Positions 9,052-20,568 of a stretch of DNA of 20,568 nt are shown here, in pieces. How positions within the stretch are numbered: position 1 is the stretch's first letter; every line of letters begins with the position of its first letter. The notes below the pieces were generated by a model, which worked only from the letters and a program-made list of their open reading frames with translations, was not told where the DNA came from and ran no database searches. The stretch is from a virus. The stretch is from IMG/VR virus record IMGVR_UViG_3300010354_000871, positions 1 to 20,568 of that record. The stretch is one strand, 5' to 3'. Made by a program: the position numbers and the translations under genes.

Positions 9052-9080
9052 ATTATACCACAAGGGTAGCTAAATGTCAA
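9052..9080 (-). promoter_or_regulatory. Perfect sigma-70 promoter for the tape measure unit
   Basis: On the minus strand, -35 TTGACA (9075-9080) and -10 TATAAT (9052-9057) are separated by 17 bases. TGG just before the -10 makes it an extended -10 as well. All twelve consensus bases match. The predicted start of transcription is about 9045, some 35 bases before the tape measure ATG. It lies directly downstream of the terminator at 9101-9135. Confidence 0.9.
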
Positions 9081-13951: not shown

Positions 13952-15355
13952 TTAAACGTAGCGAACTGAAACTACGCCAGCACCTTCATTACTTGTAAGC
14001 TGGCTCATAGCAACACGCATACTTGCAACTAGAACACGACGCTGATTGATAACTTCATCGTCTGTATCCATACGCATTGCACGATGGTTACCAACTACAA
14101 AGTTACGTGGGTTAACTAACACAGCTAGTGCATCATTAGCTGCTAGACCAGTCATTTGGCCGGTAACAACTACTGGAGTTTGTGTGATTAATCCAACTTG
14201 ACCAGTGATTAGTGTATTACGTGACTCACTGACTTTATCTGTACTTTGGAAAGTAGCATCGTCTAGTAGATCGTAGTAGGCTGCTTGGCTAACAAATAGT
14301 ACTAGTTCGCTTGGCTCTAGACCCCAAACACCTAGCGCACGACGTGCGTCCATAAATTTAGCCATAGTAAACTTACCACCAACTGCTACTGTTGGGCTGC
14401 TAGTAGCGCTAGCATCGTAATATGCTAGACCATTGATACCAGCTGCATAAGTTGTAGCACCAACGTCATTGCCAATTAGCATTGACTTGTCTAGTGTTTT
14501 AGCCATACGACGTACGATTGCATCGCGGATAATAGGCACTAGGGCAATAAGTCCATCTTCCTCTTCTTCAAAGGCAATGTACTCTTTGGTAGCTAATTTA
14601 GCGCTGCTAATTGTAATCTCTTTAAGAGCATGTGTACGAGCTGTACCACTGCTGCTTGATCCACCAAAATCGCTGTTTGCTACCCAGGTTGCATCTGCAC
14701 CAGCATCTGGATTAATAGGCAGCTTCATAAATGGCTGTGGCATTGTAATTTGACGAATTGCACCAGCAACTACTAGTTGACGGCGAATTTCATTTTCAAT
14801 GTTAGTGCTGATTTCTGTTTCCCAGTTGCCGCTTGGTAGACGAACTGCACCGCCTGCACCACCGCCCGATCCAGCAGCACCAGCTGTGCCACCACTAGCA
14901 TACTTTTGCACTAGGCTTTTAGCATACTTGGTTTCTTCAATAGGCTTTTTGGTGATTTTGCTAATAAATACTGCAGCTTCTTTTTCTGCATATGTAGCAC
15001 CGCCATCAGTACTACGTGTATCATTAAACTGCATACGGCTCTTTTGAATTGCTTCTAGCTCAGCAGCTTTTTCTTTTAGTGCGCTTTCTAGACCTTCTAG
15101 TGCGCTCTTGTGGCTTTCAGCTTGCTCATTAAGACGCTTTTCAACGTCGGCTAGTAGGCGCTCTGCACCAGTGTCAACTGTTTGCACTGAGGCAACAGCT
15201 GCTTTGATTTTGGCTTGTAGCTCTAGTTCTGCTTTATCAGCAGCTTCTTTTTCTGCTAGTGCTTTGGCTTGTGCTTCTACAACAGCTTTGGCAGCTTGCT
15301 CAGCAGCTTGTGCTGTAGCTTTGGCTAACATAAGTTCTAACTCTTTTGGATCCAT
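13952..15355 (-). CDS. Possible capsid-only product from an internal start
   Basis: ATG at 15355 begins MDPKELELMLAKA, the usual opening style of free-standing HK97-type capsid proteins. It is preceded by AAAGGG (15364-15369), eight bases from the ATG, inside the protease-capsid frame. Translation from here would give a 467-residue scaffold-capsid protein without the protease. This would solve the dose problem of a protease fused to a subunit needed in hundreds of copies. The alternative is that only the fusion is made and the protease cuts itself free. It is supported by the start context only. Confidence 0.5.
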   Translation of the reverse strand: MDPKELELMLAKATAQAAEQAAKAVVEAQAKALAEKEAADKAELELQAKIKAAVASVQTVDTGAERLLADVEKRLNEQAESHKSALEGLESALKEKAAELEAIQKSRMQFNDTRSTDGGATYAEKEAAVFISKITKKPIEETKYAKSLVQKYASGGTAGAAGSGGGAGGAVRLPSGNWETEISTNIENEIRRQLVVAGAIRQITMPQPFMKLPINPDAGADATWVANSDFGGSSSSGTARTHALKEITISSAKLATKEYIAFEEEEDGLIALVPIIRDAIVRRMAKTLDKSMLIGNDVGATTYAAGINGLAYYDASATSSPTVAVGGKFTMAKFMDARRALGVWGLEPSELVLFVSQAAYYDLLDDATFQSTDKVSESRNTLITGQVGLITQTPVVVTGQMTGLAANDALAVLVNPRNFVVGNHRAMRMDTDDEVINQRRVLVASMRVAMSQLTSNEGAGVVSVRYV

Positions 15356-15943
15356 GTTCCATTCCCTTTTATTTGCGCTATTTGCTACCGCGTGATCGTC
15401 AAGCCCTTTAGCTGATCCATCACTAACTGCAAATTGCTGTTTAAATAACTCAAATTCCTCTGCACTATCAAATGCTTTGGATAGACTAAAAAGCGTGTTT
15501 TGATTAGCAGGAATACTAACTACGCTAATCTCGTGTAATTCTAGGTCTTTGATTAAAAATACTTCTGCGGCACTATTATACTCGGCATCCTTGACCCTAA
15601 ACCCGATACTAAAGGCACTTAGGATACCCTTTTTAATTAGTTTGTACACATTGTCGGCAGCATCGGAAATTGTAGCTTTGATCCACAACCCCCGCTCATC
15701 AACACGGTGTTCAACCATTTTACCTACAGGCATTTGATGATTGTGGTAAGCTAGAATAATAGGATTTTTAAGGTAGTTGGTTAAACCTTTTTCCCATACG
15801 CTAGTAGGTACTACGTCACCTACTCTGTCCACATCATTGGTAGATGCATAACCTTCAATGGTTACACTATCTTCACCGTCCTGATCGGCCGCTTTAGCAG
15901 TAAACCTGGAATTAAAATATATAACTTTATTTTTAATATCCAT
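13952..15943 (-). CDS. Prohead protease-scaffold-major capsid fusion (HK97 fold)
   Basis: A 663-residue polypeptide joining three normally separable head functions. Residues 1 to about 165 are an HK97-family prohead protease (peptidase U35): IEGYASTNDVDRVGD, His67 or His69 in AYHNHQMPVG, nucleophile candidate Ser112 in SAFSIGF, and ELHEISVVSIPANQ near 135-148. Residues about 197-345 are an Ala/Glu/Lys-rich coiled coil, acting as delta/scaffold domain. A Gly/Ala linker lies near 347-368, and mature capsid follows, with SGNWETEI, a long helix near 470-500 and VINQRRVLVASMRVA near the C-terminus. The start was chosen at ATG 15943, which follows AAGGAG at the portal end (TAG T ATG). The longer frame from a TTG at 15976 lacks a good ribosome site. 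An internal start at 15355 may also give capsid alone. Confidence 0.92.
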   Translation of the reverse strand: MDIKNKVIYFNSRFTAKAADQDGEDSVTIEGYASTNDVDRVGDVVPTSVWEKGLTNYLKNPIILAYHNHQMPVGKMVEHRVDERGLWIKATISDAADNVYKLIKKGILSAFSIGFRVKDAEYNSAAEVFLIKDLELHEISVVSIPANQNTLFSLSKAFDSAEEFELFKQQFAVSDGSAKGLDDHAVANSANKREWNMDPKELELMLAKATAQAAEQAAKAVVEAQAKALAEKEAADKAELELQAKIKAAVASVQTVDTGAERLLADVEKRLNEQAESHKSALEGLESALKEKAAELEAIQKSRMQFNDTRSTDGGATYAEKEAAVFISKITKKPIEETKYAKSLVQKYASGGTAGAAGSGGGAGGAVRLPSGNWETEISTNIENEIRRQLVVAGAIRQITMPQPFMKLPINPDAGADATWVANSDFGGSSSSGTARTHALKEITISSAKLATKEYIAFEEEEDGLIALVPIIRDAIVRRMAKTLDKSMLIGNDVGATTYAAGINGLAYYDASATSSPTVAVGGKFTMAKFMDARRALGVWGLEPSELVLFVSQAAYYDLLDDATFQSTDKVSESRNTLITGQVGLITQTPVVVTGQMTGLAANDALAVLVNPRNFVVGNHRAMRMDTDDEVINQRRVLVASMRVAMSQLTSNEGAGVVSVRYV
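15353..15370 (-). promoter_or_regulatory. Internal ribosome binding site within the protease-capsid gene
   Basis: On the minus strand AAAAGGG, eight bases, then ATG GAT CCA. It falls exactly at the junction between the protease tail and the scaffold domain, after a run of residues (SANKREWN) with no domain character. The protease-to-scaffold border would be the natural place for a gene start if the two had once been separate genes. Confidence 0.5.
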
Positions 15944-15944
15944 A

Positions 15945-17129
15945 CTACTCCTTAGCTCCTTGTGGCCTACCGCCAATTGACGGATTGGCTGCTGAACCTG
16001 CTATATTAGCAGGGATTCTAATTGTATCGCCACCAGCAATTGTGGGATACCGTAATTCTATTCTAGCTTCATTGGGCGTTATAATACCGCCATTTACTAG
16101 TGTTTGATGATAGCTGGCTATGTCTTTTAATTCTGGCTGTAGTGCACTAACGCTGCTGGTTATAGCTTCTACATCATAGCCAAAATATCGCTCTATAGCA
16201 CTTATATATAATCTGGCTAGCGGCAGCACACTTTCTAGGTAAAATAATCTAAGATTAGGGCTAATATTAGCATTATTACCGCCCATTAATAGTATTGGCG
16301 GCACTCCTATAGTAGTCATTATGCGTTCGCTGTGTGTTTTTATAGCTTGATCAAAATCTAGGTCGCTGAACTTTTGATCGGTTAGTTTTATTGGCTTTAG
16401 TCCGCTGTCTAGAATAATTGGTCGCTTACCACCACTTTTAGTATTATATCGCTGCTGCCAGTATTGCAGTGTTTTTTCTTTTGCCTGCTGCGATAGTGTG
16501 TTTTCGCTAGTAAGTACTAGTCCAAATACAGTGCCATTGTCAAAGAATTTTTGCTGAAACTCTTGCATGCTATAGAGTATGTTTATATTCTCCTGGCAGG
16601 CACTAAGGCGGCTAGCACCTCGATAAATACTTTCACTGTTTAAGTCTTTAAAGTAAAATACTTCAGTATCCTTAAACTCTACTGTACCACTGTAACGATA
16701 GCCACGTATATACAGTTTAGGGTCTGTGAGAATATCTACATTGTGTGCTGGTAGGTGGTACATAAAGGTACCATCATAGTGTATAAAGGCATTGCCCTCC
16801 AACAACAAGTCTTTGAAAATCTCACGACGAAAATCTTGTGCACTTTGATAGGGATTAGGTCTAAAATTTAACAGTGTGTTTAATGTTTTTTGACGAACAC
16901 CTATAACAACCCCATCATGTACTTTATCTTTAATATCATAGTCTAAGCTAGCGCAAGCACTAACTAGCATATTTACACTTCTGCTTACACTATCAATATA
17001 TTTAAAGGCATTTTGATTTGTTAGTATTTGTGTATTAGTACTAACATCACCGCCTTCATCATAGTGTATTTGTTGCTGTGCTGGATTTAACTTTGTAGTA
17101 ATCCAATTACGTATCTTTTCTAACGCCAT
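15945..17129 (-). CDS. Portal protein (HK97 family)
   Basis: A 394-residue portal, the usual length of the HK97 family. It forms the dodecameric ring at the head vertex through which DNA enters and leaves and to which terminase and adaptor dock. Visible family features: an N-terminal region with YIDSVSRSVNMLVSACA near 45-60, FRREIFKDLLLEGNAFIHYDG near 101-121, AHNVDILTDP and YRYSGTVEFKDTEVFYFKDLN near 128-165, EFQQKFFDNGT near 191-201, and TIGVPPILLMGGNN near 275-288. The tail is Gly/Pro-rich. The ATG follows an AGGGGG site and overlaps the HNH gene by 23 bases. Its last two codons provide the AAGGAG site of the capsid gene. Confidence 0.93.
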   Translation of the reverse strand: MALEKIRNWITTKLNPAQQQIHYDEGGDVSTNTQILTNQNAFKYIDSVSRSVNMLVSACASLDYDIKDKVHDGVVIGVRQKTLNTLLNFRPNPYQSAQDFRREIFKDLLLEGNAFIHYDGTFMYHLPAHNVDILTDPKLYIRGYRYSGTVEFKDTEVFYFKDLNSESIYRGASRLSACQENINILYSMQEFQQKFFDNGTVFGLVLTSENTLSQQAKEKTLQYWQQRYNTKSGGKRPIILDSGLKPIKLTDQKFSDLDFDQAIKTHSERIMTTIGVPPILLMGGNNANISPNLRLFYLESVLPLARLYISAIERYFGYDVEAITSSVSALQPELKDIASYHQTLVNGGIITPNEARIELRYPTIAGGDTIRIPANIAGSAANPSIGGRPQGAKE

Positions 17130-17568
17130 TTAAGCCCCCTGTAAACTCTGCAAAATAGGAGCCATAGCTACTGCCACGAAATACACTCTCACCGGACAAA
17201 TGTTTGCTGTGCTGCAATTCAATCCAATGTTGCTGTTTAGGTACAGAGCTAGGTATTGGCGATTTGCCATAAATGCCGTGTAGTTGTACATGATGTCTAT
17301 TACAGAGCGTATAAACAAGATCATATATTTCTACTCGGTGCTCTGCTATAAACTCATCACGAATTGCCAGAACCTTTTCATCAGTGCTAATATCATAACC
17401 TTTGCGCTTAACCCAAATCTCTAGTAAGTGTGTTAGGCTGTGCAGGTGATGTAGCTCTAGGTCGTTTTGCGAACCGCAAATATAGCAGTGAGACTTTTTT
17501 TCATAGGCACTTTTAGCTTTGTCTCTAATATGCTTGATTGGAATGCGTTTATTTGTGTTTACTGCCAT
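17107..17568 (-). CDS. HNH endonuclease
   Basis: A 153-residue protein with a zinc-supported HNH motif: Cys28-x2-Cys31 (CYICG), catalytic pair His40-His41 (LELHHLHS), and Cys89-Asn-Arg-His92-His93. The N-terminus is basic. There are two possibilities. One is a free-standing homing-type nuclease. The other is the HNH packaging cofactor that in many cos-type phages sits beside the terminase and stimulates its cleavage. Its place as first gene of the portal-capsid unit, on the same strand and overlapping portal, fits the second better. It has a consensus promoter upstream (17594-17623) and no strong ribosome site (GTGGA, about 10 bases away). The motif is secure; the role is inferred. Confidence 0.85.
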   Translation of the reverse strand: MAVNTNKRIPIKHIRDKAKSAYEKKSHCYICGSQNDLELHHLHSLTHLLEIWVKRKGYDISTDEKVLAIRDEFIAEHRVEIYDLVYTLCNRHHVQLHGIYGKSPIPSSVPKQQHWIELQHSKHLSGESVFRGSSYGSYFAEFTGGLNGVRKDT

Positions 17569-17593: not shown

Positions 17594-17623
17594 ATTATAG
17601 CCTAAAAGGTATACAATTGTCAA
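17594..17623 (-). promoter_or_regulatory. Sigma-70 promoter for the HNH-portal-capsid unit
   Basis: Minus strand TTGACA (17618-17623) and TATAAT (17594-17599), both perfect, with an 18-base spacer. The predicted transcription start is near 17587, about 20 bases before the HNH ATG. The spacer contains CCTAAAAGGT, and the -35 is immediately preceded by a 17-bp dyad, so this promoter looks regulated. Confidence 0.85.
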
Positions 17624-17657
17624 TAGGTAAATTTTACCTACCCTAAACCTAAAAGGT
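17601..17657. promoter_or_regulatory. Operator-like cluster: repeated CCTAAAAGGT and a 17-bp dyad
   Basis: CCTAAAAGGT occurs twice (17601-17610, in the promoter spacer, and 17648-17657). Between them lies a perfect odd-centred dyad TAGGTAAA-T-TTTACCTA (17624-17640), abutting the -35 of the minus promoter. All three sites share an AGGT half-site. Spacing between the two repeats is 47 bases. The arrangement suggests a repressor or activator controlling the leftward and possibly the rightward promoter; no protein is known to bind. Confidence 0.55.
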
Positions 17658-17686
17658 CATAGCCAACTAACAAACAAAAACCAGGG

Positions 17687-17715
17687 TTGAAACCACAACC
17701 AAAACAGTGTATAAT
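17687..17715 (+). promoter_or_regulatory. Sigma-70 promoter for the GIY-YIG gene
   Basis: Plus strand TTGAAA (17687-17692), 17-base spacer, TATAAT (17710-17715). The predicted start is near 17722, about 23 bases before the ATG. The leader has no evident Shine-Dalgarno. The promoter is divergent from the HNH-portal promoter; the two -35 elements are 63 bases apart. Confidence 0.78.
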
Positions 17716-17744
17716 AGTAGTTTTAGACTAAAAATACAACTATC

Positions 17745-18308
17745 ATGAACAGCGGAATATATCAACTAAACTTTTCAAGTGGACACTACTATATCGGCAA
17801 AAGCGAAAACATACCCAAGCGCTGGGAAACGCATAGACGTAACTTCCAACAAGGTAAACACACACGCAAGATGCAGTGGGCCTATGACAACTATGGTATG
17901 CCAGATTTCCAAATACTAATGATCGTACACCCAGACCACATAGACCTCTACGAAGATGCCCTAATACAAGTTAGCTGGGTTGACCACCTAATACTCAACG
18001 GTACTAAACCACCAACAATCACACAAGAACAACTAGATAAACTTGATCAAGCGGAACGTACTACCATTGACGACCATAAGATTATGCAATTGGGTACCCT
18101 AGAACATATTGAGTGGTTGTGGCGATTTAAGGAGTTGTGCGAACAGTATAAGCAAGAATTACAAGAGTTAGAAGACGAGAATGAACTAGTCAAACAGCTT
18201 AAAAATCTCGAGCACACCAACACAACACTCGCCAACACTAATAGAGCACTAAAAGATGAAATAAAACACTTTAAAGGATTAAGCTGGTGGCAACGTATTT
18301 GGTACTAG
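17745..18308 (+). CDS. GIY-YIG endonuclease (homing type)
   Basis: A 187-residue protein, the only complete plus-strand gene. Catalytic GIY-YIG domain spans residues 1-90: Gly4-Ile-Tyr6, Tyr16-Ile-Gly18, Arg26, His30, a Glu70 likely to bind the metal, and Asn85. The C-terminal half (about 95-187) has no recognised DNA-binding fold and instead a charged coiled-coil (LEDENELVKQLKNLEH) and a Trp-rich end, LSWWQRIWY. Its stop overlaps the terL stop by three bases of a shared CTAG, so it fits exactly between terL and the control region. A free-standing homing nuclease is the natural reading; a role in packaging or exclusion of related phages is possible. It has its own promoter and probably an expression time different from the late genes. 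Confidence 0.85.
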   Translation: MNSGIYQLNFSSGHYYIGKSENIPKRWETHRRNFQQGKHTRKMQWAYDNYGMPDFQILMIVHPDHIDLYEDALIQVSWVDHLILNGTKPPTITQEQLDKLDQAERTTIDDHKIMQLGTLEHIEWLWRFKELCEQYKQELQELEDENELVKQLKNLEHTNTTLANTNRALKDEIKHFKGLSWWQRIWY

Positions 18309-18333
18309 ACTACATAGCTGTATAGTGCGTACC
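18301..18333. other. Imperfect hairpin at the convergent gene ends
   Basis: Outer arms GGTAC and GTACC enclose a near-perfect inner stem ACTACATA/TGTATAGT with one mismatch and one G-U pair. The overlapping stop codons of the GIY-YIG gene (18306-18308) and terL (18305-18307) fall within it. It lacks a T run, so it is not a typical terminator, but it may protect 3' ends or reduce collision of converging polymerases. Confidence 0.4.
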
Positions 18334-19594
18334 TGAGGGCATCCGCCATGTGCGAATATTTATCATGCTTTGGCCGTTCCTTAACCAGCCCCTCGCGATC
18401 ATCCCAGCGATACTGATCTAGCATTTCTATAACATGTGTACAGTCTTTATGCACACGTAATCTGCCCTGCTGGACCAGTGTTTGCACATAGGCAATGCCT
18501 GGTAACACATCTTTTTTGGCACGAGTAGTAGCTATTTCATAGTTATAGGCTAGATCAGCAGCAAATTGTGCAGCAGCCGAATCAATAAATACTGTTTCAA
18601 TATTCCAGCGATCTATCATCCTGTGAAAATGCTCACTATGTTCACGTGTAGTACGCTCCGATTCACAATAATCTTCTACACAATAAAAACAGTCCGTATT
18701 ATAATCATAGATGATATTAACCCAAGCCGTTTCGTCACGGTAACCTGGATCTAGTCCACTAAAGGCTTCACCACGTAACTCTGGTAACTCGTCAATGATA
18801 TACTCAGCCCTAAACCCCTCATAGATTTGTCCCAAGTAGCTGGTAAAGCTGGCCATATACTCCTGCTCAAATTCTGACTTAGGCATTGATCGTCTGGCCT
18901 CCTCCACATCACTAGGAGCCATCCTAGTATTCTCCGAATAGTCAGCCTGCAGACTACACCACTCTGGAAAGTTAGGGTCAAAGCCGCGCTGATAAAATCG
19001 TGAAAACCAGTTTTGCTTGCCGCGTGGTGTGCTAATAAATATTGCCTTGCTATTAGGCTTGTCTAGTGTAGGACGTAGCTGCACATTAAATGCCTCCTCA
19101 CCGCGCTCCGATAGAGCAGCTTCATCAAAAATTATAAGATCATAGCTGCGACCTACAGTACTATCAACTGTGCTAATAGATCCCATCCTTATAGTACTGC
19201 CATTTGACAGCTCAATAATTTTATCTTTAAGATTATCACGCTCTACTTCCAGGTCAAAATGCTTGATCAATTTACGCTGCAGCTCAAACGAGATTGAACT
19301 CAAATTATAGTTAGGTGATATAATTAATACATTGCAGTTGGGTACTAGGGTTACCAGTTGACCAATAATATTGGCTATGTATGTTTTGCCTAATCTGCGT
19401 GCAAGTGCAGCGCAGATAAAGCGATACTGCGGGCTGTTGACTGCATTGATTAGTGCGATTTGGGGTCTGTTGATTGTGTCGTAGATGTTTAGTAATCTAA
19501 GATAGTTGTCTATAGGCAGTTTAATAAATCGACGGCCGGGATCAAAGTCGGTAATATAATCACAGTCTACATCTGGTCTACTTACTACTAGCAT
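18305..19594 (-). CDS. terL: Terminase large subunit
   Basis: A 429-residue packaging motor. ATPase half: Walker A-type ARRLGKT (residues 65-71), an adenine-motif-like region upstream, Walker B LIIFDE (153-158) and coupling motif FISTP (186-190). Nuclease half with an RNase H fold: Asp282 (GLDPG), Asp338 (VFIDSA) and Asp418 (SHMADALRYA) are the likely metal-binding triad. It hydrolyses ATP to push DNA through the portal and cuts the concatemer. The length is typical. The ATG at 19594 has GGAG eight bases upstream and overlaps the 30-codon small ORF. It is convergent with the GIY-YIG gene and has no visible terminator. Confidence 0.95.
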   Translation of the reverse strand: MLVVSRPDVDCDYITDFDPGRRFIKLPIDNYLRLLNIYDTINRPQIALINAVNSPQYRFICAALARRLGKTYIANIIGQLVTLVPNCNVLIISPNYNLSSISFELQRKLIKHFDLEVERDNLKDKIIELSNGSTIRMGSISTVDSTVGRSYDLIIFDEAALSERGEEAFNVQLRPTLDKPNSKAIFISTPRGKQNWFSRFYQRGFDPNFPEWCSLQADYSENTRMAPSDVEEARRSMPKSEFEQEYMASFTSYLGQIYEGFRAEYIIDELPELRGEAFSGLDPGYRDETAWVNIIYDYNTDCFYCVEDYCESERTTREHSEHFHRMIDRWNIETVFIDSAAAQFAADLAYNYEIATTRAKKDVLPGIAYVQTLVQQGRLRVHKDCTHVIEMLDQYRWDDREGLVKERPKHDKYSHMADALRYALYSYVV

Positions 19595-20355: not shown

Positions 20356-20384
20356 AGTATACCATATGCGTAGCAGTTTGTCAA
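20356..20384 (-). promoter_or_regulatory. Strong promoter upstream of the packaging unit
   Basis: Minus strand TTGACA (20379-20384), 17-base spacer, TATACT (20356-20361), with TGG before the -10 forming an extended -10 element. Eleven of twelve hexamer bases match consensus. It would transcribe the small ORF and run on into terS and terL. Confidence 0.85.
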
Positions 20385-20473: not shown

Positions 20474-20568
20474 ATGGCAACAGCCAAAGCCCCTAACTAT
20501 AGCCCTGAGCAAACTGCTCAGATTGTGGCCGACTATCGGGCCGGTGTTACGGTTGAGCAAATTGCCCA
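20474..20568 (+). CDS. Start of a small putative DNA-binding protein (3' end off window)
   Basis: Thirty-one codons are visible, from an ATG with AGGAG eight bases upstream to the window edge. The product begins MATAKAPNYSPEQTAQIVADY and then RAGVTVEQIA. The pattern of two helices (SPEQTAQIVADY, then VTVEQIA after a Gly turn) is that of the first helices of a helix-turn-helix domain. Similar N-termini occur in small proteins of aquatic phages that may act as regulators. It is divergent from the packaging unit and is probably the first gene of an early or middle rightward unit. Confidence 0.7.
   Translation, partial: MATAKAPNYSPEQTAQIVADYRAGVTVEQIA

Follow-up and report, generated by a model that had tools for sequence, protein, structure and literature searches.

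A predicted native late promoter beside a mobile GIY-YIG gene in an uncultured T5-like phage, and a spacer element common to the late promoters of its group

Two near-consensus promoters facing away from each other, with a perfect dyad and a pair of repeated 10-mers beside them, occupy the junction between the terminase and HNH genes of a virus fragment of 20.6 kb (20,568 nucleotides; this whole stretch is hereafter called the window). The minus strand of the window carries the genes for small and large terminase, HNH, portal, a protease-capsid fusion, and tail proteins. What purpose does such a divergent layout serve inside a late gene block? The preliminary description saw in it an early-type switch with operators, possibly controlled by a dedicated phage repressor. 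The present analysis points to a different answer, namely a native T5-like late promoter with a mobile GIY-YIG insert and its own promoter alongside, and this whole reading is considered very probable on sequence grounds. The junction has the following features.

15945-17129, minus strand: portal protein (PF04860, 4.1e-53)
17107-17568, minus strand: HNH protein (PHROG_3497), counterpart of the T5_ev219 nicking endonuclease
17594-17623, minus strand: predicted late promoter TTGACA-18 nt-TATAAT, 12/12 consensus, -35 at 17623-17618 and -10 at 17599-17594; homologous promoters in relatives
17600-17617, minus strand: 18-nt spacer of this promoter with the late spacer element (TACCTTTTAGGC), including CCTAAAAGGT copy 1 (17601-17610 on the plus strand)
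17624-17640, no strand assigned: 17-bp perfect dyad TAGGTAAATTTTACCTA, touching the minus-strand -35
17641-17646, minus strand: TTAGGG, right-hand junction of the insert and remnant of the original TerL stop context
17647-18304, no strand assigned: inserted segment of about 658 bp (GIY-YIG gene, promoter, and leader), absent in empty relatives
17648-17657, no strand assigned: CCTAAAAGGT copy 2, in the insert and not part of a promoter; close relatives only
17687-17715, plus strand: GIY-YIG promoter TTGAAA-17 nt-TATAAT, 11/12, -35 at 17687-17692 and -10 at 17710-17715
17745-18308, plus strand: GIY-YIG endonuclease of 187 aa (Pfam PF01541, 8.6e-6, above cut-off; PHROG homing endonuclease)
18305-19594, minus strand: terminase large subunit (TerL), stop TAG

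Both promoters noticed earlier are indeed present, and they are taken as real signals because shuffles of the whole window lead one to expect 0.025 promoters per window at 12/12 and 0.85 at 11/12 or better. The targets first assigned to them hold as well, HNH-portal-capsid lying on one side and the GIY-YIG gene on the other. A promoter homologous to the minus-strand one was found at 79 of 90 relative loci (57 distinct), and the TerL-HNH junctions of Escherichia phage T5_ev219 and Vibrio phage Thalassa also contain one (TTTACA-N17-TATACT). It heads the late operon at a conserved position in relatives, T5-like phages included, and several portal promoters of relatives have poor -35 boxes (TTGCA, TTGAAC). 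Judging from this conservation, the minus-strand promoter belongs natively to the HNH-portal-capsid unit as its late promoter of sigma70 type, its activity and timing being predicted. Placed directly after the terminase stop, it would drive the nicking-type HNH, portal, and capsid genes.

The encoded proteins also show likeness to T5-like phages. TerL shares 49-50% identity with those of T5-like Vibrio and enterobacterial phages. Over 123 aa, the HNH protein has 41% identity to a T5_ev219 protein annotated as a nicking site-specific endonuclease, which has the same position before the portal gene. An HNH gene ahead of portal-capsid had been correctly described, but it is the counterpart of this nicking type, and a role as homing enzyme was rejected in favour of that match. 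Comparison at the DNA level returned no known phage relatives, and an Rfam search of the window gave no RNA element match. A short contig (L091) of a Methylococcaceae MAG, carrying a TerL relative of 64-66% identity and a D5-like relative, may hint at a host; a TerL relative was present in no other of the 201 genomes searched in the order of this MAG. Additionally, prohead protease and major capsid protein are fused in one open frame at 13952-15976.

The divergent layout can be traced to an insertion. Alignment with two empty relatives (L016 and L013) reveals that native DNA resumes at TTAGGG, which in both of them is continuous with the TerL stop, and spans the whole promoter, leaving 17647-18304 as extra sequence; compared with L016, the right flank of the window shows about nine mismatches over the full length of the promoter. 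At the other end of the insert, the TerL stop TAG and the GIY-YIG stop overlap in CTAG. The promoters thus diverge because a mobile GIY-YIG gene was inserted beside a promoter that relatives possess without the insert. This insertion is intergenic with intact flanks, empty-site relatives exist, and occurrence of the gene is patchy; from this distribution, its product is probably a free-standing homing endonuclease. GIY-YIG is the sole Pfam domain of the 187-aa window protein, in which no DNA-binding domain was recognised. Both hexamers of the GIY-YIG promoter are 100% conserved, distant GIY homologues included, and its spacer is missing the late element described below (score -14.5). The mobile gene would have been inserted between the terminase stop and the late promoter with its own constitutive or early-type promoter.

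The same slot varies widely in relatives. Among 80 relative loci found through TerL, most have the HNH start 60-110 nt after the TerL stop, with the promoter between and without a GIY-YIG gene. Of the slots beside 67 distinct TerLs, 47 are empty and 20 occupied, and the TerL tree requires at least 12 changes of state. The slot may contain nothing, another GIY-YIG gene, two GIY-YIG genes, a ferritin/Dps-like gene, or other genes. For instance, near-identical TerLs are accompanied by a GIY-YIG gene in L082, a ferritin/Dps-like gene in L075, and an empty slot in L078; likewise, the TerLs of L008 (another GIY-YIG) and L009 (empty) are near-identical. Two different GIY-YIG genes stand in tandem downstream of TerL in L007. 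Since near-identical TerLs differ in slot content and changes are this frequent, the terminase-HNH junction is regarded as a hot spot, at which a conserved promoter is surrounded by rapid turnover of mobile nucleases and cargo genes. Orientation follows the type of gene, GIY-YIG genes lying upstream of the promoter and reversed, and ferritin-like genes downstream of it in late direction. A ferritin/Dps-like gene between TerL and HNH was observed in L069-L071, L073, L075, L079, and L080 (the Pfam check covering L069), and also within the larger insert of L068, a 3.7-kb segment in which it accompanies several co-oriented genes with no assigned function.

The supposed switch itself is thus ordinary, consisting of a standard late promoter and the promoter of an inserted nuclease gene, and tracing it revealed a late spacer element shared across the phage group. 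Three further features of the window are relevant here.

9052-9080, minus strand: tape-measure promoter TTGACA-TTTAGCTACCCTTGTGG-TATAAT, 12/12, a sister late promoter whose spacer element is complete
20356-20384, minus strand: candidate promoter of the terminase operon, 11/12, late-type spacer score 4.1
20474-20568, plus strand: start of the D5-like HTH gene, cut by the window end, 93.5% identical over 31 aa to the protein of relatives

The element, approximately RCCCTTGTGN, adjoins the -10 and is common to three non-orthologous late promoters. As R-CCCTTGTG-N it stands beside TATAAT in the tape-measure promoter, which is conserved in 20 distinct relatives, and in a consensus late promoter that precedes a membrane protein of about 115 aa in relatives. 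In promoters chosen solely through protein homology, the information content is 1.8 bits at spacer positions 8-16 as against 1.1-1.25 at positions 1-7, and the element is conserved nearly like the hexamers. A weight matrix trained on the spacers of the tape-measure and membrane-protein promoters places portal spacers far above shuffled ones (0/1000 and 0/2000 shuffles), and this excess holds with 11 dissimilar representatives. The portal spacer of the window itself has a degenerate element with a modest match (score 4.5, background P 0.007). Moreover, the motif together with both hexamers occurs at 119 or more viral-contig loci versus 7 for a permuted control; the pattern in unrelated contigs (about 7) was discounted as chance, being equal in number to that control. 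Empty-slot relatives conserve the element too. Copy 1 of CCTAAAAGGT is, from these comparisons, a part of the portal promoter's form of the element at a functionally constrained position, and it would recur in other relatives because it belongs to the late-promoter element rather than to a private operator. The CCCTTGTG element was not seen in the T5_ev219 and Thalassa late promoters examined, and no report of it was found in the open-access literature, which is weak evidence of novelty. A family-wide late-promoter element has accordingly come to light inside the spacers of near-perfect sigma70 promoters of an uncultured T5-like phage group. As a separate observation, relative L102 (G007) has three 12/12 minus-strand promoters with a related spacer (about CGCNNGCAAAAATTATGN) at about 14440, 15651, and 17228, directed against the surrounding early genes.

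How the timing of these promoters is set has a parallel in T5, in which early and late genes alike have strong sigma70 promoters ahead of them, the RNAP-binding protein gpT5.026 affects the early/late switch, and late timing has no settled mechanism though late promoters look constitutive (PMC7472727). In the present phages, the timing of late promoters would be set by host polymerase that phage proteins modify or assist, rather than by a repressor on the dyad; the candidate helpers are the D5-like HTH protein or, as in T5, a protein that binds RNA polymerase. For the spacer element itself, it is quite conceivable that it represents a plain extended -10 (TGTGn) that host sigma70 polymerase recognises without any phage factor. 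The sequence TTGTGN beside TATAAT fits this explanation, as do the near-perfect hexamers of these promoters. However, conservation exceeds a plain extended -10 by reaching to CCC at -21 to -19, and TG is missing from the portal version. The explanation also bears only on the element and leaves timing unaccounted for.

More tentatively, the 3' half of the spacer (about RCCCTTGTG, -22 to -14; TACCTTTTAGG in the portal promoter) may be bound by a phage late factor that gives perfect sigma70 promoters their late timing, the D5-like HTH protein being the likeliest candidate. If true, this would bear on the T5-like late-gene switch, which is called unresolved in PMC7472727. The first 31 codons of the HTH gene lie inside the window just beyond the late block, and in nearly all relatives reaching that far a gene for an HTH protein of about 108 aa adjoins the terminase genes on the opposite strand. 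PHROG_323 (D5-like) is matched by 24 of 24 aligned relatives (best 2.7e-11). The structure model has an N-terminal three-helix HTH (pLDDT 83, pTM 0.48), and the fold matches the D5 protein of a Vibrio phage weakly (E 5e-3); no significant match emerged among solved structures, whether compared by sequence or by fold. The D5-like HTH protein is thereby a candidate early/late regulator and reader of the spacer element. Between 20356 and 20568, the terminase-operon promoter faces away from a promoter for the cut-off D5-like HTH gene, and this stretch is likely the early/late divide. Two D5-like HTH paralogues, 77% identical, were also noticed in a single phage (L102, 13919-14242 and 17423-17728).

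A dedicated phage repressor that binds the dyad and both CCTAAAAGGT sites and holds the two promoters off until late is very unlikely. Its attraction lies in the operator-like placement: the dyad and the two 10-mers are present as first described, the dyad against the -35, one copy in the -35/-10 spacer (17601-17610), and the other at 17648-17657. Furthermore, the close GIY clade (the window and L003-L006) retains all sites, the dyad and copy 2 almost perfectly, and the D5-like phage HTH protein is encoded next to the terminase genes. The idea of a phage regulator therefore survives in the HTH gene just beyond the late block (20474), but not as a repressor acting on the dyad and repeats, which occur at chance frequency. 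Perfect dyads of two 8-bp arms separated by a gap of 0-1 are expected 1.1 times per window, and one was found, at 17624-17640. The window has 7 distinct places where an exact 10-mer recurs within 60 bp (11 repeat rows seen versus 2.24 expected), so the CCTAAAAGGT pair is unremarkable in this genome. The full dyad is present in 2 of 57 distinct promoters, an outcome that the preliminary description had itself named as telling against its proposal. In two distant GIY-bearing relatives (L089 and L010), copy 2 has 55% identity, the same as its flank, which likewise counts against the proposal by the yardstick set in that description. The D5-like gene also occurs in relatives without the dyad and copy 2.

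Both the dyad and copy 2 were consequently rejected as conserved operators, and among the repeats only the spacer copy lies in a constrained promoter position. A search for CCTAAAAGGT elsewhere, as had been suggested, found none in the rest of the 20.6-kb record; an operator-pair regulon was rejected as the sites are confined to this locus. With one mismatch allowed, TTTTAGGNTATAAT is found in a relative usually once and never more than a few times, which speaks against a regulon. With the divergence stemming from the mobile GIY-YIG insertion and the dyad and copy 2 not conserved, the early-type switch with operators is not supported. The dyad is best explained as an AAATTT tract, possibly UP-element-like, that precedes the -35 and is framed by chance arms: this core is present in 46 of the 57 distinct promoters, and a dyad would easily arise from its self-complementary sequence. 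A similar AT tract precedes the Thalassa late promoter (AAAATTTTTGTG-TTGACT), and the tract upstream of the late -35 in the window would act as an UP-like element. A recent, clade-specific function of the dyad and copy 2 might exist in the close GIY clade.

Less probable still is I-TevI-like autorepression by the GIY-YIG protein, with copy 1 as part of the target in empty phages and copy 2 as an operator near the gene: the operator of I-TevI is similar to the homing site of this enzyme and overlaps with its late promoter (PMC2988022), and the insertion junction here is flanked by one CCTAAAAGGT 10-mer per side, but copy 2 sits 29 bp upstream of the GIY -35 and not over the promoter, is missing where the GIY homologue has 68-75% identity, and would have to be bound by a protein in which no DNA-binding module was recognised.

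The native late promoter with its mobile neighbour can finally be compared with known systems. Divergent promoters of the lysis/lysogeny type drive regulator genes and have several operators with one conserved dyad consensus, whereas those of the window drive HNH-portal and GIY-YIG, and the dyad and 10-mers differ from each other. Likewise, copy 2 is not a conserved operator overlapping the endonuclease promoter, as would characterise the I-TevI type. In T4, free-standing endonucleases occupy intergenic regions that also harbour promoters, and they can give rise to antisense transcripts (PMC2988022). The T4 seg genes, free-standing GIY-YIG homing endonucleases, resemble the window gene in their GIY-YIG domain, their location between conserved genes, and their patchy occurrence with empty sites (PMC2988022); the window gene differs in running antisense to the late operon from a promoter of its own and in having no recognised DNA-binding module. 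The D5-like regulators (PHROG_323; D5 of Vibrio phage vB_ValS_X1) share the HTH region, matched in all 24 relatives, along with the weak fold similarity, but vB_ValS_X1 D5 has 245 aa versus about 108 aa here, the common part being mainly the HTH. T5 (Demerecviridae) shares the order terminase, nickase-like HNH, portal, protease, capsid, the promoter directly after TerL, and the strong sigma70 late promoters (PMC7472727), whereas in T5_ev219 TerL and HNH are separated by another gene (675 bp), and the promoter fits the consensus less well (TTTACA/TATACT). With a specific sequence at hand, and an HTH protein as candidate, the T5-type question of late timing becomes testable.
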